Below are positions 1-49,390 of a stretch of 64,000 bases of DNA, in pieces; the stretch's first letter is position 1, and the number at the start of each line of letters is the position of its first letter. Source of the DNA: Limibacillus sp. (GTDB taxonomy: Bacteria; Pseudomonadota; Alphaproteobacteria; Kiloniellales; CECT-8803); assembly GCA_037379885.1 (NCBI GenBank), contig JARRJC010000003.1, positions 1-64,000 of the forward strand, written 5' to 3'. Under the pieces are notes generated by a model. That model saw only the letters and a list, made by a program, of their open reading frames with translations, did not search any database and was not told the DNA's origin. The position numbers were made by a program, and so were the translations under genes.

Positions 1-461
1 GCCAAGGGGCTGGCGAAGATCCGGTCGCCGCCGGACTTGGCGGGGGACGCGCTTCCGCCGGATGCCGCCGGCTGGGCTGCGGGCTGGGCTTCGGACTTTG
101 GCGCGGGCTCGGATTTAGGCGCAGGCTCAGCTGCTTCCTTCTTCTCCTCCTTGGGCGCTTCGGCCTTGCTTCCCTGCTTCGGAGAAGCGTCGGCGCCTTC
201 CAGGTCGTCCGCACTCTCCCCCTCTTCCAGCAGCAGCGCGATCACCTCGTTGACCGGCACGCCCTCCGTGCCTTCGGCCACGACGATCTTGCCGAGCGTC
301 CCCTCTTCGACCGCTTCCACCTCCATGGTGGCCTTGTCGGTCTCGATCTCGGCGATCACATCGCCGGAGTTGACCTCGTCGCCTTCCTTGACGAGCCATT
401 TGGCCAGCTTGCCCTCCGTCATGGTGGGCGAAAGTGCCGGCATCAGAACCTGAACGGGCAT
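1..461 (-). CDS. pdhC: Pyruvate dehydrogenase E2, dihydrolipoamide acetyltransferase (5' part only)
   Basis: This is the N-terminal 153 codons of the E2 core of the pyruvate dehydrogenase complex, which moves the acetyl group from lipoamide to CoA. The gene runs off the left edge. The ATG at 459-461 follows a good GGGGAGG ribosome-binding site. Residues 1-78 form a lipoyl domain with the lipoylation lysine K43 in [10 protein letters not shown] mobile Ala/Pro/Lys/Glu-rich linker follows, and the last visible residues, RIFASPLA, begin the peripheral-subunit-binding domain. It lies 27 nt downstream of pdhB in the same operon. The catalytic domain is outside the window, so a sister 2-oxo-acid E2 cannot be strictly excluded, but the neighbours make PDH by far the likeliest. 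Confidence 0.93.
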
Positions 462-488
462 TTCAATTCCTCCCCGAAGACCGGGTTA

Positions 489-1910
489 TCAGTCGCGGTA
501 GCAGACGGCCTTGGCCGCCGCCACGATATGCTCGGCCTGGGGCAGCGCCAGCTTTTCCAGGTTGGCGGCATAGGGCATTGGCACGTCCTTGCCGCAGACC
601 CGCGCCACCGGCGCATCCAGCCAATCGAAGGCCTGCTCCATCATGATCGCGGCCATTTCGGAGCCGATGCCGCAAACGGCCCAGCCCTCTTCGACCGAGA
701 CCAGACGGTTGGTCTTCTTCACCGAGTTGATGATTGTTTCGGCGTCCAGCGGGCGCAGCGAACGCAGGTCGATGACCTCCGCGTCAATGCCTTCCTCGGC
801 CAGCTGGGCCGCCGCCTCCAGGGCCATGCCGACGCAGACCGAATAGCCGACCAGCGTCACGTCGCTGCCCTTCTTCACCACCTTCGCCTTGCCGATGGGG
901 ACGGTCCAATCGTCGCTCTTCGGCACCTCGAAGGACTGGCCGTAGAGGATTTCGTTCTCCAGGAAGACCACGGGATCCGGATCGCGGATCGCCGCTTTCA
1001 GGAGACCCTTCGCATCGGCCGCCGAATAGGGCGCCACCACCTTCAATCCGGGGATATGCGCATACCAGGAAGCATAGTCCTGGGAGTGCTGGGCGGCCAC
1101 GCGCGAAGCCGCGCCGTTGGGGCCGCGGAACACGATGGGCACATGCACCTGTCCGCCGGACATGTAGAGCTGCTTGGCGGCGGAGTTGATGATGTGGTCG
1201 ATCGCCTGCATGGCGAAGTTGAAGGTCATGAACTCGACGATGGGCTTCAGCCCGTAATAGGCGGCGCCCGTGCCGAGACCGGCAAAGCCCATCTCGGTGA
1301 TCGGCGTGTCGATCACGCGCTTGGCGCCGAACTCGTCGAGAAGACCCTGGGTCACTTTGTAGGCGCCCTGATATTCGGCCACCTCCTCGCCCATGACGAA
1401 GACCTTGTCGTCGGCCCGCATCTCCTCGGCCATGGCGTCGCGCAGCGCTTCACGGACGGTCAGGGTCTCGGTCTCCCCGGTCCATTCCGGCTCGTCCTGC
1501 TCTCCGCTGGACTGCCCGGTGGCGACCGGTTGAGGTACCTCTTCAGGCGCGGCGGCCCGGGCCGGCTGAGACGCGGGAGCCTCTGCCGCTTCGTCGTCGC
1601 TCGAATCTCCATTCGAATCGTCAGAGGGGGCCGCCGTGTCGGCGCCCTCCAGCGCGCTCTCGTCCTCGCCTTCTTCGAGCAGCAGGGCGATGGGGCTGTT
1701 GACGGCGACACCCTCGGTGCCTTCCTCGACCAGTATCTTGCCGAGCTTGCCTTCCTCGACCGCCTCGACCTCCATGGTGGCCTTGTCGGTCTCGATCTCC
1801 GCGATGACGTCGCCGGCGCTTACCTCGTCGCCGACCGACTTCACCCATTTCGCCAGCTTGCCCTCGGTCATCGTGGGCGAAAGTGCCGGCATCAGCACTT
1901 GAACGGGCAT
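489..1910 (-). CDS. pdhB: Pyruvate dehydrogenase E1 component, beta subunit, with N-terminal lipoyl domain
   Basis: Beta subunit (473 aa) of the alpha2beta2 E1, which decarboxylates pyruvate on thiamine diphosphate. Residues 1-78 are a complete lipoyl domain with the target lysine K43 in ETDKATMEV, followed by an acidic Ser/Asp/Glu/Pro linker to about residue 145. The E1-beta pyrimidine-binding and transketolase C-terminal domains fill the remainder ([29 protein letters not shown]). The lipoyl fusion makes it about 140 residues longer than an ordinary E1-beta. This architecture is known from alphaproteobacteria. The gene follows pdhA after 41 nt. Its lipoyl domain is strikingly like that of pdhC in both protein and DNA. 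Confidence 0.97.
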
Positions 1911-1951
1911 TTTCTTGCCTCCCTAAAGCGTTTTTTACCGGTCTCGGCGAC

Positions 1952-3010
1952 TCAGAGTTCGAGCGCGTAGACGTCGGTCCAGAGTTCGGAGGGATCCGGC
2001 TCGGGACTGTTCTGAGCGAAATCCGCGGCGTCGGAGATGATGTCCTTCACCTCCCGGTCGATCCCCTTCAGCGTGTCCTCGTCGCTCACCTTGTTTTCCA
2101 GGATGAGCTTCTTCAACTGATCGATGGGATCGTGCTCGGTGCGCATCTTCTGCACCTCTTCGCGGGTCCGGTACTTGGCCGGGTCCGACATGGAGTGGCC
2201 GCGATAGCGGTAGGTCATCATCTCGAGGATGTAGGGACCCTCCCCTTTACGCACCTTCTCGATGATGGCGGCGGTTTCCTCCTGGACCTTGATGACGTCC
2301 ATGCCGTCGATCTGCTTGCCCGGAATGCCGTAAGCCTCGCCGCGCTTATAGAGCTCGGTCGATGCCGAGGCGCGCTGGACGGAGGTACCCATGCCGTAGC
2401 GGTTGTTCTCGATCACGTAGATGACCGGCAGCTTCCAGAGCGCGGCCATGTTGAAGGACTCATAGACCTGTCCCTGGTTCACCGCGCCGTCGCCCAGATA
2501 ACAGAAGTGGACCGTGTCCTCGCCCAGGTACTTCTGGGCGAAGCCGATGCCCGTGCCGATGGGCACCTGCGCGCCCACGATGCCATGGCCGCCGAAGAAC
2601 TTCTTCTCCCGGCTGAACATGTGCATGGAGCCGCCCTTGCCCTTGGAGTAACCGTCCTTGCGGCCGGTCAGCTCGGCCATCACGCCCTTTGAGTCCATGC
2701 CGCTGGCGAGCATGTGCCCGTGACAGCGGTACGAGGCGACCACGCTGTCCTCGTCCGTCATGTTGGCGTGAATGCCCGTCACCACGGCCTCCTGCCCGAT
2801 GTACAGGTGACAGAAGCCACCGATCAGGCCCATGCCGTACATCTGGCCCGCCTTCTCTTCGAAGCGGCGGATCAGCAGCATCTCCCGATAGTAGCTGAGC
2901 AGCTTTTCAGCGCTGTAGTTGGTGCTGGATGACGTCTTGGATTTGCGGGTGCGCTTGCGCGCGGGGGACTGACTGGCGGAGCTTGAGCTCGCGCTTTTCC
3001 TGGTCGCCAT
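1952..3010 (-). CDS. pdhA: Pyruvate dehydrogenase E1 component, alpha subunit
   Basis: Alpha subunit (352 aa) of the thiamine-diphosphate-dependent E1. The ThDP motif is GDG at residues 173-175 with the closing NN at 202-203. The phosphorylation-loop region YRYRGHSMSDPAKYR of the E1-alpha family is present. Residues 1-32 are a Ser/Lys/Arg-rich, probably disordered leader that is not part of the catalytic fold; such leaders occur in alphaproteobacterial PdhA. First gene of pdhA-pdhB-pdhC, with its own promoter region at 3011-3196. The start is supported by GGCAGGGAG 5 nt upstream of the ATG. Confidence 0.97.
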   Translation of the reverse strand: MATRKSASSSSASQSPARKRTRKSKTSSSTNYSAEKLLSYYREMLLIRRFEEKAGQMYGMGLIGGFCHLYIGQEAVVTGIHANMTDEDSVVASYRCHGHMLASGMDSKGVMAELTGRKDGYSKGKGGSMHMFSREKKFFGGHGIVGAQVPIGTGIGFAQKYLGEDTVHFCYLGDGAVNQGQVYESFNMAALWKLPVIYVIENNRYGMGTSVQRASASTELYKRGEAYGIPGKQIDGMDVIKVQEETAAIIEKVRKGEGPYILEMMTYRYRGHSMSDPAKYRTREEVQKMRTEHDPIDQLKKLILENKVSDEDTLKGIDREVKDIISDAADFAQNSPEPDPSELWTDVYALEL

Positions 3011-3028
3011 GACTCTCCCTGCCTATGG

Positions 3029-3048
3029 TTGACTGCGCTTGACTGCGC
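3029..3048. repeat. 10-bp tandem repeat in the pdhA leader
   Basis: TTGACTGCGC occurs twice in direct tandem (3029-3038 and 3039-3048), 18 bases upstream of the pdhA start codon and downstream of the proposed -10. A third partial copy (GCGCATTGC) follows. It lies in the transcribed leader if the promoter call at 3062-3090 is right. Its function is unknown; it could be a protein-binding site or a simple duplication. Confidence 0.6.
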
Positions 3049-3061
3049 ATTGCTGAGGTCA

Positions 3062-3090
3062 ACGATAGGCCCATAACGAGAAAATTGCAA
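3062..3090 (-). promoter_or_regulatory. Putative sigma70-type promoter of pdhA-pdhB-pdhC
   Basis: On the minus strand, -35 TTGCAA (3085-3090) is followed after 17 bp by -10 TATCGT (3062-3067). It lies about 50 bases upstream of the pdhA ATG in the gap after ftsB. Both hexamers are imperfect but the spacing is ideal, and the -35 lies inside an inverted repeat. Inferred from sequence only. Confidence 0.45.
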
Positions 3091-3117
3091 CGCGACCTAA
3101 CGCGTTGCAATTTCTCG
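3077..3117. promoter_or_regulatory. Inverted repeat overlapping the pdhA -35: likely operator
   Basis: ATTGCAACGCG (3084-3094) is perfectly mirrored by CGCGTTGCAAT (3101-3111) around a 6-nt spacer, and the dyad extends through CGAGAA/TTCTCG to 3077 and 3117 with one unpaired A. Each arm contains the self-palindrome TTGCAA, with the two centres 20 bp (about two helical turns) apart. The dyad covers the proposed -35, the position expected for a repressor. The cognate regulator is not identifiable in the window. Confidence 0.55.
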
Positions 3118-3196
3118 ATTTTCTTTTATTTAACTTGATATTAGTTCAGGCTGCTCGAAACGGAATTCACGTCGCCGTCGCCCAGATTACCCCTGG

Positions 3197-3526
3197 TTAA
3201 TTCCCCCGGGGATTCCCATCGAAACGAACCACGCCGTCGGTCGGCTGCCCGTAGTTCAGCAGCAGTCGCGCGCGCTCGTCGAGAAGATCGAGGTCGAGAC
3301 TCTCAGGACGCAAACCGGCCACCTTCATCTCCAAGGCGGCGCGCTGTTCGGAAACAGCGGCGGACTGGAGCTCGGCCTGCTGAAGCTCCTTGTTGAGCTT
3401 CACATAGGCAAGAAAGCCCCGCTCGCCCTGCACCGCATGGAAGCCGAAGTAGACCACCATGCAGGCCGCGAAGACCTGGAGCGACACGGCGACGCCGCGC
3501 TTGCGTATTTCCTGTAGCATCGACAT
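3197..3526 (-). CDS. ftsB: Septum formation initiator FtsB/DivIC family protein
   Basis: A 109-residue single-pass inner-membrane protein of the divisome; in the family, FtsB bridges FtsL and FtsQ. A short basic N-terminus (residues 1-10) precedes one hydrophobic helix at about 13-31. A periplasmic coiled coil then runs to about 70, followed by the family C-terminal region with ERARLLLNYG. The location between eno and pdhA is the standard one for alphaproteobacterial ftsB and supports the call more strongly than the weakly conserved sequence. The start could also be Met3 at 3520. The preceding 171 bases up to eno hold no other gene. Confidence 0.85.
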   Translation of the reverse strand: MSMLQEIRKRGVAVSLQVFAACMVVYFGFHAVQGERGFLAYVKLNKELQQAELQSAAVSEQRAALEMKVAGLRPESLDLDLLDERARLLLNYGQPTDGVVRFDGNPRGN

Positions 3527-3697
3527 GCCCCTATGGAACCACCAAGCGACTCGGCGCGCAATCTAAAAAATTCAATGATTCCAAGGGGATTCCCGGTGTG
3601 ACTCAAAAGACTCTATGTTCTCTTTTTGATCACCCTGGCCCAAAGGGCCACCACTATATCTAGTAGCAGTTCGGGAAGCTCGCCAACTAGCCCGCCG

Positions 3698-4999
<1,302 letters not shown>

Positions 5000-5090
5000 C
5001 TAGCAGCGAAGGAAAGAAGAGAGCAGAGGAATAGCGCCTCGCCGCGCGAGCGGCAAGCTGAAGCGGCCCCGAAAGGCGGCTGAGTCCAAA

Positions 5091-5939
5091 TCAGATCGAA
5101 ACGGGATGCGCCTTGGCGACCTTGTCGAGCTCCGCCATGACCGAGAGCATCTCCTTCAACCGGGTCAGCGGAATCATGTTCGGCCCGTCGGAGGGGGCGT
5201 TGTCGGGGTCTTGGTGGGTCTCCGCGAAGACCGCGGCGACGCCGACCGCAATGGCGGCGCGGGCCAGGACCGGCGCGAACTCGCGCTGTCCGCCCGAGGA
5301 GGTGCCCTGCCCGCCCGGCTGCTGCACCGAGTGGGTCGCATCGAAGACGATGGGACAGCCGGTGTCGCGCGCCATGATGGGCAAACCGCGCATGTCGGAG
5401 ACCAGGGTGTTGTACCCGAAGGAGGCGCCGCGCTCGGTCAGAAGCACGCGCTCGTTGCCGGCCTCCTTCAGCTTGGCGAACACGTTCTTCATGTCCCAGG
5501 GCGCCAGGAACTGGCCCTTCTTCACATTGATCGCGGCACCGGTTTCGGCGGCGGCGATCAAAAGGTCCGTCTGGCGGCAGAGGAAGGCCGGGATCTGGAG
5601 CACGTCCACCGCCTCGGCGGCCGGCGCGCACTGCTCGGGCAGGTGCACGTCCGTCAGCGTGGGGCAGCCGGTCGAGGCCCGCACCTCGGCCAGAATCTCC
5701 AGCCCCTCCCCGATCCCAACACCGCGCGCGGCCTTGAGGGAGGTCCGGTTCGCCTTGTCGAAGGAGGACTTATAGATGAGCGGGATGCCCAAGGCGTCCG
5801 TGATCTCCTTGATCGCCTGGCTGGTCTCCAGCGCATGCTGGCGGCTTTCGATCTGGCAGGGACCGGCGATCAGGGTGAAGGGCCTGTCGTTGGCGACGGT
5901 CAGGTCGCCGATGGCGACGCTACGGTTAGGCTCGGACAT
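5091..5939 (-). CDS. kdsA: 3-deoxy-8-phosphooctulonate (Kdo-8-P) synthase
   Basis: Condenses arabinose 5-phosphate with phosphoenolpyruvate to Kdo-8-phosphate, the committed step to the LPS inner-core sugar. The protein is 282 aa. IAGPCQIES places a cysteine (C28) at the position that distinguishes the metal-dependent class from the metal-free E. coli class, which has Asn there, so a metal-dependent enzyme is inferred. [11 protein letters not shown] and [12 protein letters not shown] are further family motifs. It begins 31 nt downstream of pyrG, so the two are probably co-transcribed. Confidence 0.96.
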
Positions 5940-5970
5940 GGGCTTTGCTGCCTCGATAACGGCGCCCCGG

Positions 5971-7605
<1,635 letters not shown>

Positions 7606-7743
7606 CTATCGGGCCTAACTCCTTTCGGAGCAAGCCTCCCTCTATCGCTCGTTCCTGCCCGCCGTGGAACCCAGAAGGGCCTGCCCCGGCAACCCTATGA
7701 TTCGCCGCACTTTGGCGGCGTGGCGCGCGCCGAATTCCGAAGC

Positions 7744-7790
7744 GCACAAAAGAAATCGCGCCGGACCAGGAAGCTCCCGATCCGGCGCGA
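7744..7790 (-). terminator. Rho-independent terminator after secG
   Basis: On the minus strand a perfect 10-bp stem TCGCGCCGGA/TCCGGCGCGA (7756-7765 with 7781-7790) around a 15-nt loop is followed at once by TTTCTTTTG. It begins 13 nt past the secG stop codon. This separates tpiA-secG from pyrG-kdsA. Confidence 0.85.
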
Positions 7791-7803
7791 CTCGAGTCGT
7801 CCG

Positions 7804-8178
7804 TTACTGAACCGGCACGCTGGGCGCGCTCGGCTCGCTATCGCTACTGCCGTCCGTGCCCTCTTCGGCCGGGAGCGGCGCCAGGGGCGCGAGCTGCTCG
7901 CTGCCGCCCAGGTCGTCAAGAACCGACGAACCGCCTTCACGGTCCACGCCCGAGAGGATCGTGAGCACGACGCTCAGTCCCATGAAGCAGGCTGCGAGAA
8001 TGGCAGTGGTGCGGGTCAAGAGGTTGGCGGTACCGCGACCGGTGAGGAAACCTCCGCCGCCACCGCCGCCGCCACCGCCGCCGATGCCGAGCGCGCCGCC
8101 TTCACTGCGCTGCATCAGCACGACGCCGATCATGGCGAGCGTGACCAACAGAAAGATGACGAGGATGATCGAAAACAT
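7804..8178 (-). CDS. secG: Preprotein translocase subunit SecG
   Basis: Small accessory subunit of the SecYEG channel (124 aa). The N-terminal helix MFSIILVIFLLVTLAMIGVV is followed by the family segment LMQRSEGGALGIGG, a second membrane helix at about 58-76, and a C-terminal Ser/Glu/Pro-rich tail of roughly 48 residues. The inter-helix loop contains 11 consecutive glycines (8050-8082), longer than the short glycine-rich stretch usual in the family. The position between tpiA and pyrG is standard. It is followed by a strong terminator. Confidence 0.95.
   Translation of the reverse strand: MFSIILVIFLLVTLAMIGVVLMQRSEGGALGIGGGGGGGGGGGFLTGRGTANLLTRTTAILAACFMGLSVVLTILSGVDREGGSSVLDDLGGSEQLAPLAPLPAEEGTDGSSDSEPSAPSVPVQ
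8050..8082 (-). repeat. Glycine-codon run inside secG
   Basis: Eleven consecutive GGN codons, mostly GGC with GGT/GGA interruptions, encode the cytoplasmic loop of SecG. Such a triplet tract could vary in length by slippage in steps of whole codons, which would not break the frame. Confidence 0.8.
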
Positions 8179-8307
8179 GGAGCTTTCCGCTTCCCAGCAA
8201 GTCCTTGGCGGGCGCCCGGTTTTCTCTTCCAGGAAAGGCCCGGCTGCCGCCGTTCATTCAACACATGGCTTTCGGGAGGGGTATTTAGACCCTTTGACCC
8301 GCTATTG

Positions 8308-9051
8308 CTAGGGGCAAGCGCGCGCGATCTCCCAAAAATCGTCGGCCTTCAGGCTGGCGCCTCCGACCAGCGCGCCATCGACATCCGCCAGAGCCAACAG
8401 CTCCGCGGCATTGTTGGGTTTCACCGAGCCGCCATAAAGGATCAGTGTGGCGGAGGCCTCCTCAGCACCCCGCATCTCCTCCAGGACGCGCCGCAGCTCC
8501 GCGTGAACCTCGGCAACGTCGTCAGGGGTCGCGCTCTTTCCCGTTCCGATCGCCCAGACCGGTTCGTAGGCAACGACAGCGGTGCCGCCCTCAGGCAGAG
8601 AGCCGCGAAGCTGATCCGCTACGATAGAGAGCGCGCGTCCAGCCTCCCGCTCCTCCAGGCTTTCCCCCAGGCAGACGATGGGCGTCAGGCCCGCGGCCAG
8701 CGCGGCCTCCGCCTTCGCCTTGACCAGGGCGTCGCTCTCGTCGTGGTCGGCGCGCCTTTCGGAGTGGCCGACGATCACATGGCTGCACCCCAGGTCCGCC
8801 AGCATGGGCGCGGCGATGTCTCCGGTGTGCGCGCCGCCGGGCTCGCTGTGGCAGTCCTGTCCGCCGAGCGCGATGGGGCCGCTGGACAGGACCCCGCCCA
8901 CGGTCATGATCAGCGTCGCCGGCGGGCAGACCAGAAGGTCGCAATTCGGACTCTCACCCGCCGCCAGGTTGCTCAGGGCGCGCGCAAGCTCCACCCCATC
9001 GCCCAGAAGGCCGTTCATCTTCCAATTGCCCGCAATCAGCTTCCGCCTCAT
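8308..9051 (-). CDS. tpiA: Triosephosphate isomerase
   Basis: Interconverts dihydroxyacetone phosphate and glyceraldehyde 3-phosphate (TIM barrel, 247 aa). Catalytic residues are K11 in GNWKMNG, H96 in VGHSERR and E163 in [10 protein letters not shown], with the phosphate loop [11 protein letters not shown] chose the ATG at 9051, which is preceded by GGGGTCGAG. A GTG at 9069 in the same frame would add six residues absent from the family. It is transcribed away from ppiD; the 232-base divergent region between them must hold both promoters, but I see no clear hexamers there. secG follows after 129 nt. Confidence 0.97.
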
Positions 9052-9283
9052 CTCGACCCCGTTCTTCACCCGTCAATCGCAAGGCTTGCTGGTAGCACGA
9101 AGAGCCCCGGCTTTCCAGGGTCCGAGGGGGGTGGGAAGAGCGCCGCTCTTTGGCGGTTGCCGGGTCTTGAGCGCCTCTCTAAGATGCGCGCCGCGCCGCC
9201 CCCTTGGCGGCGCCGTTCGCCGCACCGTTGAAAGAGGTCCCGCGTCAGCCGGGGACCGCCAGGAAGGACCTGAAGAGGCAATC

Positions 9284-11191
9284 ATGCTCAAGACCATGCG
9301 CAGCACCGTCGGCAAGATCGTAACGATCGGGCTCTTCGCTCTCCTGATCCTGAGTTTCGCCGTCTGGGGCATCGGCGACATCTTCAGGGGACAGGGTGCG
9401 GACAGCGTCGTTGCGAAGGTGGGCGATCGCGAGATCACCGTCGCGGAGTACAGCCGGGTCCTGCAACAGGAGGTCAACCGCACCCAGCAGATGCTGGGCC
9501 GTTCGCTGGATGGCGATCAGATCCGCGACTTCGGCGTGGCCGAACGCGCGCTGGAGCGCCTCATCACCCAGACCTCCATCGATCTTCTGAGCGACGATCT
9601 CGGCATGACGGTCACCGAGGAGCAGCTGCGCGAATCGATTCGCCAGGACCCCGGTTTCCAAGGGCCCGACGGACAGTTCGATCCCTCCTTGCTGCGCAAC
9701 GCGCTCTTCGCCAACAACATGAGCGAGTCGATGTTCCTGGGCGTCCTGAGCAAGTCCATCGCGCGCCAGCAGCTTCTGGACGCCGCCTTCGCGGGTCTGG
9801 AAGTCCCCGATGCCTTCGCCATGCCGCTTTACGCCTATGAGAATGAAACGCGCGATGCGCGCTACGTGACGCTGTTCCACAGCGCCTTCGCCGACATCGA
9901 AGACCCGGAGGAAGTCGCCCTTCAGAGCTTCTATCAGGAGCAGAAGCAGAACTTCATGGCGCCGGAGTACCGCGCCCTGACCGTGGTCCGCATCACCGCC
10001 GAAGACCTGATGGACGAGGTCGCGGTCAGCGAGGAGCAACTGCGCGAAGAATACGAGCTGCGCAAATCCAGTTTCGAGGTGCCGGAGACCCGCACCCTGA
10101 CCCAGGTCGTGTTGTCGGCCGAGGAGGACGCACAGGCGCTCGCCGCCGCCGCGCAGGAAGGCAAGACGCTTGCAGCCGCCGCCGAAGAGCTGGGCCTGCC
10201 CGGCCCTGTGGACCTCGGCAGCGTGACCAAGGATGAGCTGCCCGGCGCCGTCGCCGAGACCGCTTTCCAGGGAGAGGCCGGCAGCGTGGTCGGTCCCGCC
10301 GCCTCCCCCCTTGGTTTCCACGTCATTCGGATCGACAGCGTGACAGCCGGTTCGCTGCGTACCTTTGAAGAGGTGCGGGACGAACTGACGCGCGAGCTGA
10401 AGCGCGGCCAGGCTATCGACAGCCTCGTCACGCTGGCGAACGAGTTCGACGACACTATTGCCGGAGGCGCCTCGCTTGAGGAAGCCGCCGCGGCCTTGGC
10501 GCTGCCGATCCAGAGCATCGACGCGGTGGACCGCAGCGGGCGCACGCCCGATGGCGCCCTGGTGGAGGGCCTGGAGCCGCGCGAAGCGATCCTGACGGAG
10601 GCCTATCAGCTCGAACCGGGCCTCGAGAGCCTTCTGATCGAGACCGGCGACGACGGCTACTTCATGGTCCGGGTCGACGGCATCACGCCGGAAAGCGAGC
10701 GCCCCCTCTCCGAGGTTCGCGACAGCGTGATCCGCCGCTGGAAGCAGGAAGAGCGCGCCCGCCTTGCCGGGGAACTCGCCGAGGCGATCCAGGCCAAGGC
10801 CGCCGAGGGTCTGACCCTGGAAGCGGCGATCGAGGCGGTCGAGAAGCCCGAGGGCATGAATCTGGTCGTGGAGACGACAGAGGGCGTTGCCCGCAATGAG
10901 CGCGACCAGCAGAAGGTCCCCTCCCCGCAGTTCACCTCCACCCTGTTCCAGATGGAGCCCGAGGAGGTGCGCACCACCGTCGGCCCCCTGGCCGAGATCG
11001 TGGTTCGGCTGAGCGCCATCGAGACCCCGGAGCCCTCGGAAGATCAGCAGGCTCTCGACGACCTGCGGGCCGTCACCCTGGGGGCGATGCAGAACGACCT
11101 GGGCGCGCAGCTGCTTCAGGCTCTGCGCGAAGAACAGGGCGTCTCCGTGAACCGCCAGCAGATCGACCTGCTGCTCCAGAACTACCTCTAA
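9284..11191 (+). CDS. ppiD: Membrane-anchored periplasmic peptidyl-prolyl isomerase/chaperone PpiD
   Basis: An inner-membrane-anchored periplasmic folding factor acting on proteins leaving the Sec channel (635 aa). The short cytoplasmic tail MLKTMRSTVGK is followed by one membrane helix at residues 12-31. A SurA-like N-terminal chaperone domain then runs to about 220, a parvulin (PPIC) domain spans about 240-360 (ending SPLGFHVIRIDSV), and a long C-terminal helical region follows. The ATG at 9284 follows GAAGAGG. The frame stays open well upstream, but without a ribosome-binding site or homologous sequence. trpE starts 33 nt downstream, so the two are likely co-transcribed. Confidence 0.92.
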   Translation: MLKTMRSTVGKIVTIGLFALLILSFAVWGIGDIFRGQGADSVVAKVGDREITVAEYSRVLQQEVNRTQQMLGRSLDGDQIRDFGVAERALERLITQTSIDLLSDDLGMTVTEEQLRESIRQDPGFQGPDGQFDPSLLRNALFANNMSESMFLGVLSKSIARQQLLDAAFAGLEVPDAFAMPLYAYENETRDARYVTLFHSAFADIEDPEEVALQSFYQEQKQNFMAPEYRALTVVRITAEDLMDEVAVSEEQLREEYELRKSSFEVPETRTLTQVVLSAEEDAQALAAAAQEGKTLAAAAEELGLPGPVDLGSVTKDELPGAVAETAFQGEAGSVVGPAASPLGFHVIRIDSVTAGSLRTFEEVRDELTRELKRGQAIDSLVTLANEFDDTIAGGASLEEAAAALALPIQSIDAVDRSGRTPDGALVEGLEPREAILTEAYQLEPGLESLLIETGDDGYFMVRVDGITPESERPLSEVRDSVIRRWKQEERARLAGELAEAIQAKAAEGLTLEAAIEAVEKPEGMNLVVETTEGVARNERDQQKVPSPQFTSTLFQMEPEEVRTTVGPLAEIVVRLSAIETPEPSEDQQALDDLRAVTLGAMQNDLGAQLLQALREEQGVSVNRQQIDLLLQNYL

Positions 11192-11224
11192 CGCCGTCGC
11201 GGCCAGGAAGGCTTGGGCCCTCTC

Positions 11225-12733
11225 ATGCAGACCACGCCAGACTACGAGGCCTTCAAGACCAAGTACCAGGCAGGCGAATCCCAGGTCGTCTCGCTGCGTC
11301 TGCTGGCCGACCTTGAAACGCCCGTTTCGGCCTTTCTGAAGCTGACCGACGGGCAGTCCTTCCGCTGCCTCTTCGAATCGGTGGAGGGCGGCACGACCAT
11401 CGGGCGCTACTCCTTCATCGGCATGAAGCCCGACGTCATCTGGCGCTGCAAAAGCGGCAAGGCGGAAATCAACCGGCAGGCTCTCAGCGACAGCGAGGCC
11501 TTCGAGCCCTTGGCGGGCAAGCCGCTGGAGAACCTGCGCGCGCTGATCGCCGAGAGCCGTATCGCGCTGCCGGAGGACTGCCCGCCCATGGCCTCGGCCC
11601 TGATCGGTTACTTCGGCTATGACATGATCCGGGAGGTGGAGCGGATCCCGGAAGAGAACCCGGATGTCCTGGAGATTCCCGACTCCCTCTTTCTGCGCCC
11701 CACCATCGTCGCGGTCTTCGACCGTCTGGAAGACCAGATCACAGTCTTCACGCCGGTCTTCCCGCGAGACGGGTTGGACGCTCGCTTGGCCTATGAGCGC
11801 GCGCTGGAGCGCCTCTCGAAAGTGGCCGAGGACTTCGAGCGTTCGCTGCACGACCGACGCCTGCCGATCGGAACCCAGGCGCAACTTCCCGAACCGCAGT
11901 CGAACACCACGCGGGAGGGCTATCACCGCATGGTGGAGAAGGCCAAGGAGTACATCCTGGCCGGCGACATCTTCCAGGTGGTCCCCTCGCAGCGCTTCCG
12001 CCTGCCTTTCGAGCTGCCGCCCTTCGCGCTCTACAGGGCGCTGCGCCGCTTGAACCCCTCCCCCTTTCTCTTCTTTCTGGAGATGGGCGAGATGGCCGTG
12101 GTGGGCTCCAGCCCCGAGATCCTCGTGCGGCTGCGTCAAGGCGATATCACCATCCGCCCCATAGCCGGGACCCGCAAGCGGGGCGCGACGCCCGAAGAGG
12201 ACCGCGCGCTGGCCGAAGAGCTTCTGGCCGATCCCAAGGAACTGTCGGAGCATCTGATGCTGCTCGACCTGGGGCGCAACGATGTCGGCCGGGTCGCCGA
12301 GATCGGCAGCGTGAAGGTCACCGAGCAGTACACCATAGAGCGCTACAGCCACGTCATGCACATCGTCTCCAACGTGGTGGGCCGCATCCGCGCGGGCTTC
12401 GACATGATCGACGCGCTGGCGGCAGGCTTCCCGGCGGGCACCGTTTCCGGCGCGCCCAAGGTCCGCGCCATGGAGATCATCGAGGAGCTGGAGCCCGAGC
12501 GACGCGGCATCTACGCCGGCGCGGTCGGTTATCTGGGCGCGGGCGGCGACATGGACACCTGCATCGCGCTGCGCACGGCGCTCATCAAGAAAGAGGTCAT
12601 GTACGTGCAGGCGGGCGGCGGCGTGGTCGCGGACAGCGACCCGGAAGCGGAGTATCAGGAGAGCTGCAACAAGGCCCGCGCCCTGCTGCGCGCCGCCGAG
12701 GAAGCAGTGAATTTCGCGAAGTCCCAGAACTAG
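11225..12733 (+). CDS. trpE: Anthranilate synthase component I
   Basis: Converts chorismate plus ammonia (from TrpG) to anthranilate, the first committed step of tryptophan synthesis. The protein is 502 aa. The N-terminal domain carries the feedback-site region FRCLFESVEGG. The chorismate-binding domain includes PIAGTRKRG, LDLGRNDVGRV and AGTVSGAPKVRAMEII. It is not fused to TrpG, unlike the rhizobial TrpEG. The ATG at 11225 is preferred to a TTG at 11213 that abuts the AGGAAGG ribosome-binding site. It is cut off from trpG-trpD-trpC by a 4-kb opposite-strand insert (12770-16689). Confidence 0.97.
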   Translation: MQTTPDYEAFKTKYQAGESQVVSLRLLADLETPVSAFLKLTDGQSFRCLFESVEGGTTIGRYSFIGMKPDVIWRCKSGKAEINRQALSDSEAFEPLAGKPLENLRALIAESRIALPEDCPPMASALIGYFGYDMIREVERIPEENPDVLEIPDSLFLRPTIVAVFDRLEDQITVFTPVFPRDGLDARLAYERALERLSKVAEDFERSLHDRRLPIGTQAQLPEPQSNTTREGYHRMVEKAKEYILAGDIFQVVPSQRFRLPFELPPFALYRALRRLNPSPFLFFLEMGEMAVVGSSPEILVRLRQGDITIRPIAGTRKRGATPEEDRALAEELLADPKELSEHLMLLDLGRNDVGRVAEIGSVKVTEQYTIERYSHVMHIVSNVVGRIRAGFDMIDALAAGFPAGTVSGAPKVRAMEIIEELEPERRGIYAGAVGYLGAGGDMDTCIALRTALIKKEVMYVQAGGGVVADSDPEAEYQESCNKARALLRAAEEAVNFAKSQN

Positions 12734-25635: not shown

Positions 25636-25664
25636 TTGATCTCAGCGGCTTTAGCCACTATGCT
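25636..25664 (+). promoter_or_regulatory. Putative sigma70-type promoter of gltA
   Basis: -35 TTGATC (25636-25641), a 17-bp spacer and -10 TATGCT (25659-25664) lie in the gap between gltX and gltA, 45 bases before the start codon. Both hexamers are close to consensus. Confidence 0.5.
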
Positions 25665-25709
25665 GCGCTGCATTAAAAATAAGCGAACAGTTTGCGAGGA
25701 CCGGGAAAG

Positions 25710-27021: not shown

Positions 27022-27056
27022 AAAAGCCCCGTTGCAGCCCGCACGGGGCTTTTTTC
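27022..27056 (+). terminator. Rho-independent terminator after gltA
   Basis: An 11-bp stem AAAAGCCCCGT/ACGGGGCTTTT (27022-27032 with 27043-27053) with a 10-nt loop runs into TTTTTTCTTTT, 19 nt after the gltA stop codon. Confidence 0.92.
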
Positions 27057-40035: not shown

Positions 40036-40070
40036 AAAAGAAAGCGCCGCCCTTTTTAGGGGGCGGCGCT
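40036..40070 (-). terminator. Rho-independent terminator after tsf
   Basis: On the minus strand a 10-bp stem AGCGCCGCCC/GGGCGGCGCT (40043-40052 with 40061-40070) and an 8-nt loop are followed by TTCTTTTTC. It lies 52 nt past the tsf stop and separates rpsB-tsf from pyrH. Confidence 0.88.
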
Positions 40071-49014: not shown

Positions 49015-49390
49015 GGCGATCCTGCTCTTGATCCTGTCTGGGACTCTACTGGAGAAGACGCCGGGAATGTAGGACTTGCCCGGCGGGGTGTCCACGGTGA
49101 AAACCCGTCAGCGGCTTATCTGCGGGTCGGGGATACTCCTTCAAGGGCCGCGCTCGCTTTCGCCAGGAACGATCATCTCCAGAAAGCCGCAAGCCTCAAT
49201 AATTCGCATAAATTGCGTGACACGCGGGAGCCTATAGAATAAAAGAACCATGGCTTGAGTCGCGGGACATAAACGCGGCCCGAGTTTGGGGAGGAAAAAT
49301 AAAAACGGCAGGCCAATGAGCCTGCCGTTTCCAATTCGGGGCCCTGCACCCCGCCTTCAGCCCCCGCCTTTAGTCCTCAGGTCTCAGCCT
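49015..49390. other. 376-base intergenic region between tag and proS
   Basis: The only gene-free stretch over 300 bases. The left two thirds should contain the proS promoter and leader, but I see no pair of hexamers I would defend; the AT-rich patch at 49195-49250 is the likeliest place. The right part holds the tag terminator (49292-49330). Between it and the tag stop lies a pyrimidine-rich stretch with repeated CTTCAGC/CTCAG words (49355-49400). No RNA gene was recognised. Confidence 0.6.
49292..49330 (-). terminator. Rho-independent terminator after tag
   Basis: On the minus strand an 11-bp stem AAACGGCAGGC/GCCTGCCGTTT (49303-49313 with 49320-49330) and a 6-nt loop are followed by TTTATTTTTCC. 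It ends the long nuo-birA-...-tag transcription unit, 61 nt after the tag stop. Confidence 0.9.

Follow-up and report, generated by a model that had tools for sequence, protein, structure and literature searches.

The window analysed here, meaning the whole 64,000-nucleotide stretch, begins together with its contig inside the pdh operon. Three open reading frames on the minus strand frame the region of interest, namely pdhA, which encodes pyruvate dehydrogenase E1 alpha (1952..3010), an ftsB/DivIC-like septum formation gene as its upstream neighbour (3197..3526), and eno (3698-4975). The gene preceding pdhA is annotated as a septum formation initiator in two records, and the ftsB translation finds matches ahead of pdhA in many related loci (tblastn). 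Between these two genes, on the minus strand, lies an inverted repeat (3077..3117) with arms of 17 and 18 nt, a 6-nt loop, and one bulged T, whose stem follows the ftsB stop by about 80 nt.

This dyad is perfect only over 3082-3113 (13-bp arms), the outer arms differing by the 1-nt bulge. Its core, ATTGCAACGCG-N6-CGCGTTGCAAT, spans 3084-3111 upstream of pdhA and carries TTGCAA at 3085-3090 and again at 3105-3110, with centres 20 bp apart, so that the mirrored pair described in an initial annotation of this DNA is borne out by reading the sequence. Folded as RNA, the dyad reaches -25.1 kcal/mol on the minus strand and -25.0 kcal/mol on the plus strand, a stability equalled by 0 of 200 shuffles on either. 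The ATTGCAACGCG-N6-CGCGTTGCAAT pattern occupies a single place in the 3.1-Mb genome (control, 0), and 100 shuffled versions of the window contained no instance of the dyad pattern. TTGCAA pairs separated by 2-32 nt were found at four places in the genome, the 14-nt gap occurring at the dyad only. The dyad is also the longest perfect inverted repeat in the 64-kb window (loops of 3-10 nt), and the three other intergenic inverted repeats of at least 10 bp (27022-27053, 40043-40070, and 49303-49330) look like ordinary terminators behind genes. No Rfam family reached its gathering score within positions 1-12000 of the window.

The right, downstream arm of the dyad coincides with what is very likely the -35 hexamer of pdhA, TTGCAA at 3085..3090 (minus strand), to which a 17-bp spacer joins the -10 hexamer TATCGT (3062..3067, minus strand), aligned with TATTCT, TATCTT, or TACTTT in relatives. 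We compared 50 usable pdhA upstream regions from 58 genomes of the order, those without a full-length pdhA match or a retrieved region being left out (G006, G008, G019, G023, G028, G032, G036, and G040). In 48 of these 50 promoters, this genome's included, the best hexamer pair had the form TTG-17 bp-TAnnnT, as opposed to 2% in locally shuffled sequence, under a scoring scheme that favours this form in real and shuffled sequence alike. A -35/-10 pair with a 16-18 bp spacer is thus conserved in relatives, as tested for a sigma-70 type promoter, while a strict TTGACA/TATAAT sigma-70 scan did not call the pdhA promoter. The proposals that the dyad covers the pdhA -35 and that its downstream TTGCAA serves as that hexamer both hold up in this comparison.

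A palindrome and an IHF-like site upstream of pdhA

Across the order, the pdhA promoter carries a second and more widespread arrangement, consisting of a 20-bp palindrome TTAACYGAAWTTCRGTTAAT followed, after 18 bp, by an IHF-like site WWTCAANNNNTTR. The order form of the palindrome reads TTAAYYNAWWNYNRGTTAAT. The best match to it outscores 95% of local shuffles in 47 of the 50 promoters (all except G017, G046, and G055) and 99% of them in 41. The distance from the end of the palindrome to the -35 is 38 bp in 32 promoters and 40 bp in 11, with 37, 49, 58, or 67 bp in the remaining seven. In this genome (hereafter G000), comparison of promoters and the sequence model R1 described below place a degenerate copy of the palindrome, TGAACTAATATCAAGTTAAA, at 3129..3148 (minus strand). 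The initial annotation had seen the dyad and missed this palindrome just upstream of it.

The consensus for IHF is WATCAANNNNTTR, and the 13-mer at offset 38 from the palindrome start, WWTCARNNNNTTA, fits it. The mean IHF-like score at that offset is 7.24 of 9 across the 50 promoters, compared with 3.3 (sd 0.86) over all offsets, and the score is at least 7 in 42 of 50 promoters, where the background is 0.7%, and at least 8 in 25 of 50. The fit is not uniform: a 13-mer elsewhere within offsets 25-59 beats offset 38 in nine of the 50 promoters, G000 among them, and ties with it in three more, and the site sits at offset 37 in G001 and G015. In the window, the corresponding place is taken by TTGCAACGCGTTA (3098..3110, minus strand), which comprises the left dyad arm and half of the loop and matches seven of the nine consensus positions, two being missed; a different 13-mer 10 nt further upstream, at offset 28, scores 8. 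The left arm of the dyad therefore overlies the IHF-like site, just as the right arm overlies the -35. Palindrome and IHF-like site mostly keep their offset even in promoters with another distance to the -35 (families f4 and f5), and so the two look like one unit. IHF alpha is encoded in this genome (143.5 bits, cut-off 120.25), which makes IHF a possible ligand of this module, with binding itself putative.

CtrA was considered for the distal palindrome. Its motif is TTAA-N7-TTAA, whereas the palindrome has the spacing TTAA-N11-TTAA, and CtrA was rejected accordingly. Dif, ArgR, and FNR sites were also considered and set aside on sequence. Rfam returned no family at gathering score in eight loci with the palindrome. 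Among the titles and abstract beginnings searched, with most subscription papers outside this scope, we found no description of the combined palindrome and IHF-like unit, and a search for the palindrome's letters gave no relevant title among the best 15 of 53 matches. In families f7 and f3, the palindrome pattern is also found where rmuC (PF02646) and DUF4139 (PF13598) genes converge, either between the two or next to them, at positions 3589 (L117), 3182 (L118), 1575 (L119), 1839 and 1909 (L120), 1793 (L121), 2310 (L122), and 5 (L123). Pfam identified the two genes together in L117, L120, and L121; in L118 and L119 it recognised only rmuC, and in L123 only DUF4139. L119 has TTGCAATATGTTA there, and L118 has CA-N5-TTA 38 bp on.

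To follow the module further, we used R1, a sequence-only model of the 53-nt unit built from 41 of the 50 order promoters, which leaves out those with shifted spacing (G001, G015, G025, and G037) and near-duplicates (G030, G034, G045, G052, and G057). Within the order, 44 of its 48 places at E ≤0.001 coincide with pdhA places, the four unconfirmed ones falling in G059 (two), G036, and G060. R1 sets the unit of the present promoter, itself part of the model, at 3098-3146 (E 2.2e-6). In a strict first look at 289 genomes across the class, R1 had matches in 40 at E 0.01 and none in the other 249. In 24 of 26 loci examined outside the order, the module stands before pdhA on the same strand, with the palindrome in the sharper form TTAACYGAAWTTCRGTTAAT. 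The IHF-like site occupies the same offset in these 24 promoters, scoring 7.29 of 9 compared with 3.26 (sd 0.68) at the other offsets and reaching at least 8 in 11 of them. These loci were selected for likeness to a model built on order promoters, and we therefore ran a test free of that selection, in which loci were picked by PdhA protein. Ten named plasmid-collection records were read, out of 32 in which pdhA was found in this way, and the module was present in four, at E 6e-4 or better: Azospirillum brasilense NZ_CP059450.1, Shinella sp. PSBB067, Sinorhizobium meliloti CP090106.1, and Sinorhizobium sp. K101, the last three being Rhizobiaceae. It was absent from the other six (two Paracoccus, Microvirga, Devosia, Sphingomonas, and S. 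meliloti pSymA), and in the Devosia and Sphingomonas records pdhA follows a gene whose annotation is not ftsB.

The dyad in related promoters

The dyad is far less widespread. A pattern combining it with a -10, TTGCAA-N14-TTGCAA-N16..18-TANNNT, has three matches in 61 genomes of the order (control pattern, 0), each of them at pdhA: in G000, in G001 from the same family, and in G024 from another family. The stricter form ATTGCAA-N4-TTA-N7-TTGCAA-N17-TANNNT, searched across 84,980 species genomes, recovered 21 stretches, in a collection that may omit the window's own records and in which G001 did not appear. Only one of these stretches encodes pdhA (L067, JACZWN010000212.1, matched to the G024 contig); in the other 20, neither pdhA nor ftsB nor eno found a match, and these look like chance occurrences.

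In the three dyads, TTA opens the loop every time, and the inner arms read CGCG/CGCG, TGAG/CTCA, and TGGT/ACCA, such that the bases differ and remain complementary in each case. An outer stem with a bulge folds in both G000 and G001, again with differing bases. In G024 the hairpin folds without an outer stem, and its stability is equalled by 23 of 200 shuffles. Among the 34 order promoters of matching spacing (38-bp or 37-bp geometry), these three are the only ones with the dyad. The remaining 31 form 40 of 124 possible inner pairs, compared with 41.4 expected from shuffled halves; with the three dyads included, the count is 52 of 136 compared with 45.3 (p 0.09). CAA-N14-TTG is found in 25 of the 34 promoters and CA-N15-TTG in 33. 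Given the chance-level pairing in the 31 without the dyad, something other than pairing seems to have conserved CAA and TTG there. The dyad is therefore not a general operator of the order, and where it is present its pairing is kept. Conservation of the dyad, which the initial annotation had made the check on its proposal, is thus found only in part: the exact form recurs at pdhA in two relatives, and it is kept in three of 34 comparable promoters.

Other hairpins were seen at pdhA promoters. In family f2, CAGGGC-N5-GCCCTG occurs in G002 and G009 and in less perfect form in G016, and a less perfect hairpin is also present in G027; these occupy nearly the same place as the dyad but with a shifted axis, and were not counted as the dyad. 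Hairpins may thus have arisen at this place more than once. The Sinorhizobium and Shinella pdhA promoters (L224, L225, and L226) bear yet another dyad, GCCAT-N6-ATGGC, after the IHF-like site, with ATAGC in K101.

Candidate explanations for the dyad

An ScfR/RamB-like acyl-CoA regulator had been named as a speculative candidate for acting at the repeat. TTGCAA is the core of the published ScfR-family TTTGCAAA boxes, and this genome has one ScfR-family gene (75 bits to PF09856). Like the operators of RamB and PccR, the dyad would present paired TTGCAA-containing boxes near a central-carbon gene. It differs from them in spacing and in having inverted, GC-rich inner arms, and its genome context lends no support: the 9-kb stretch around the ScfR-family gene contains no TTGCAA, the genome has no second TTGCAA pair of this spacing, and the inner bases are not conserved between relatives. 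In G001, the 10-kb ScfR stretch has one TTGCAA, inside the ScfR match itself. The Paracoccus class-2 RamB site consists of two near-identical boxes 18 bp apart (PMC10370305), a spacing unlike that of the dyad. After the family search and a look at the gene neighbourhood and at TTGCAA pairs across the genome, this candidate was rejected, and we regard it as highly improbable. The sole ScfR-family protein found (L064 1608-2999, 463 aa) is encoded, judging by eye, near an ABC binding protein, a response regulator, and a symporter-histidine kinase.

PhaR, which responds to PHB, initially looked a strong candidate, as a double operator of the kind known from phasin promoters, where a pair of sites surrounds the -35. 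Both arms contain a match to the 9-nt core YGCRNYGCR (TGCAACGCG and CGCGTTGCA). PhaR is encoded here (equivalog match to TIGR01848) and in 59 of the 61 genomes of the order, and within the class pdhA has been published as a target. In Bradyrhizobium, PhaR is linked to pdhA by a weak shift and a 2.25-fold change (PMC6201568), and in Sinorhizobium, Pdh protein levels respond to PhaR (PMC12542648); the part of the table covered in the latter has no pdhA row. The dyad shares the target gene and the class with these cases and differs in scoring below the published sites. On a matrix built from 25 sites of PMC12542648 (rows marked Efficient or Weak, without three of the four exoH sites and without the rhaR and acyP rows, which are mirror-image duplicates), the arms score only 5.5 and 0.5, the better one ranking 26 in the window, whereas the 25 sites score 13.7-24.9, or 12.2-24.2 leave-one-out, and the sites in the phasin promoter of this genome reach 26.1 and 20.8. 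The core is moreover broken in G001 and G024, neither of which has any YGCRNYGCR within 250 nt before pdhA. The score cut is not absolute, because the three left-out exoH sites score 2.5, 7.8, and 9.6 and yet lie in a fragment that binds, and conversely an unbound guaB site scores 17.0. On these matrix scores PhaR was rejected and appears very unlikely. Sequence comparison thus favours neither protein for the dyad, PhaR being less firmly excluded than ScfR.

PhaR-like sites were observed elsewhere. In genus g4, a strong site (ATATTGTGCAATGCAGCATTT type, matrix 19.1-24.9) lies about 170-200 nt before the pdhA start, and thus not where the dyad does, in all eight genomes examined (G003, G017, G021, G026, G030, G034, G046, and G051, as loci L040, L034, L043, L027, L044, L037, L039, and L041), a ninth, G060, being left out of the count. 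This counts in favour of PhaR acting at pdhA in that genus, where the site is likely a PHB-responsive input. In the present genome, a candidate PhaR regulon could include phasin (L175 1943-2021), a MaoC-type hydratase (L174 1765-1806), PEP carboxylase (L185 1824), a redoxin (L170 1676), an HpcH/HpaI lyase (L172 1839), and lpxC (L173 1795), each with a strong site upstream (matrix scores of 14.2-26.1); these come from 20 stretches picked by eye for strong sites among the best 100 of 103 PhaR-like places, and do not constitute a count. The best PhaR-matrix match of the window lies at 25658-25678 (17.9, CTATGCTGCGCTGCATTAAAA).

Two further explanations need no named regulator. A DNA-binding protein other than ScfR and PhaR could read a pair of TTGCAAYG half-sites separated by two helical turns and block RNA polymerase at the -35. 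In favour of such an operator, three genomes from two families share the half-sites TTGCAAYG...CRTTGCAA with exactly the 20-bp spacing, and the pattern with its -10 is confined to pdhA among the 61 genomes. Its single copy in the genome, its absence from the 31 other promoters of the same build, and innermost bases that covary instead of being fixed weigh against it, and the repressor-operator geometry read into the repeat by the initial annotation is not upheld on these grounds; we consider this version of an operator unlikely, if well short of negligible. The dyad could also have no function, the CAA of the IHF-like site and the TTG of the -35, 20 bp apart, having seeded a quasi-palindrome that was perfected in three lineages by template-switch mutation, a mechanism that can perfect quasi-palindromes. 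The prevalence of CAA-N14-TTG and CA-N15-TTG in promoters of dyad spacing and the chance-level pairing elsewhere fit such an origin, and perfect arms with differing letters are the expected trace of template-switch conversion. This conversion would nonetheless have to occur or be refreshed in separate lineages, and the bulged outer stem is also kept between G000 and G001; a purely mutational by-product seems to us a real but minority prospect.

The reading that we prefer, with a probability of about 0.45, is that the dyad is a hairpin specific to this lineage, superimposed on two older elements of the pdhA promoter that are each conserved in their own right. Its right arm would be the -35 hexamer TTGCAA, and its left arm and loop TTA would occupy the IHF-like WWTCAANNNNTTR, at a fixed 18 bp from the palindrome TTAACYGAAWTTCRGTTAAT in a module that precedes pdhA across the order and also in several further orders of Alphaproteobacteria. 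IHF and a putative regulator would bind this module and control pdhA. Less certainly, the hairpin may act in eno-ftsB read-through RNA, either as a processing stem or as an insulator resembling a terminator, perhaps shielding pdhA from ftsB transcripts and leaving it to be served by its own regulated promoter. Inner bases that change yet still pair in three genomes, when the 31 other promoters pair at chance, argue for a hairpin. The dyad also resembles intrinsic (rho-independent) terminators that overlap a downstream promoter: it is likewise intergenic and behind a same-strand gene, forms a stable stem on the transcribed strand (-25.1 kcal/mol on the minus strand), is long and GC-cored with a small loop, and shows paired changes between genomes. 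It differs from them in that two of the three dyad genomes have a weak U-tract or none on the pdhA strand. The G001 hairpin is called terminator-like on the pdhA strand (1 vs 0.3 in shuffles, a narrow margin), the G024 hairpin received no such call, and this genome has a single call, which falls on the opposite strand and compares with an average of 0.8 in shuffles. The module in turn resembles IHF-assisted promoters in its fixed site between the distal palindrome and the -35, its A/T-rich 5' flank, and the presence of an IHF alpha gene; it differs here in that consensus positions 2-3 are changed and the putative site is embedded in a hairpin. Against the hairpin reading, the dyad is known from three genomes only, the G024 stem is not unusually stable, and a protein reading both arms would also be suited by a TTGCAA in each.

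Implications for pdhA control

Pyruvate dehydrogenase forms the gateway between glycolysis and the TCA cycle, and the literature covered here, with most subscription papers outside its scope, holds little besides the PhaR work on how pdh expression is controlled in Alphaproteobacteria. A broader and more speculative proposal, which we hold to be possible though on balance doubtful, is that one old module (the 20-bp palindrome and the IHF site with their 18-bp gap) controls pdhA in much of this class through a near-single-target regulator, and that its IHF arm has here been remade into a hairpin with the -35, coupling initiation at pdhA to eno-ftsB read-through. If this is true, the regulator of the module would be a functional counterpart of PdhR. 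The dyad itself shows how a hairpin can come to overlie a promoter in one lineage, and cautions that a dyad on a -35 need not be an operator. The module beside it offers a concrete and testable cis-element in culturable species such as Sinorhizobium meliloti and Azospirillum brasilense.
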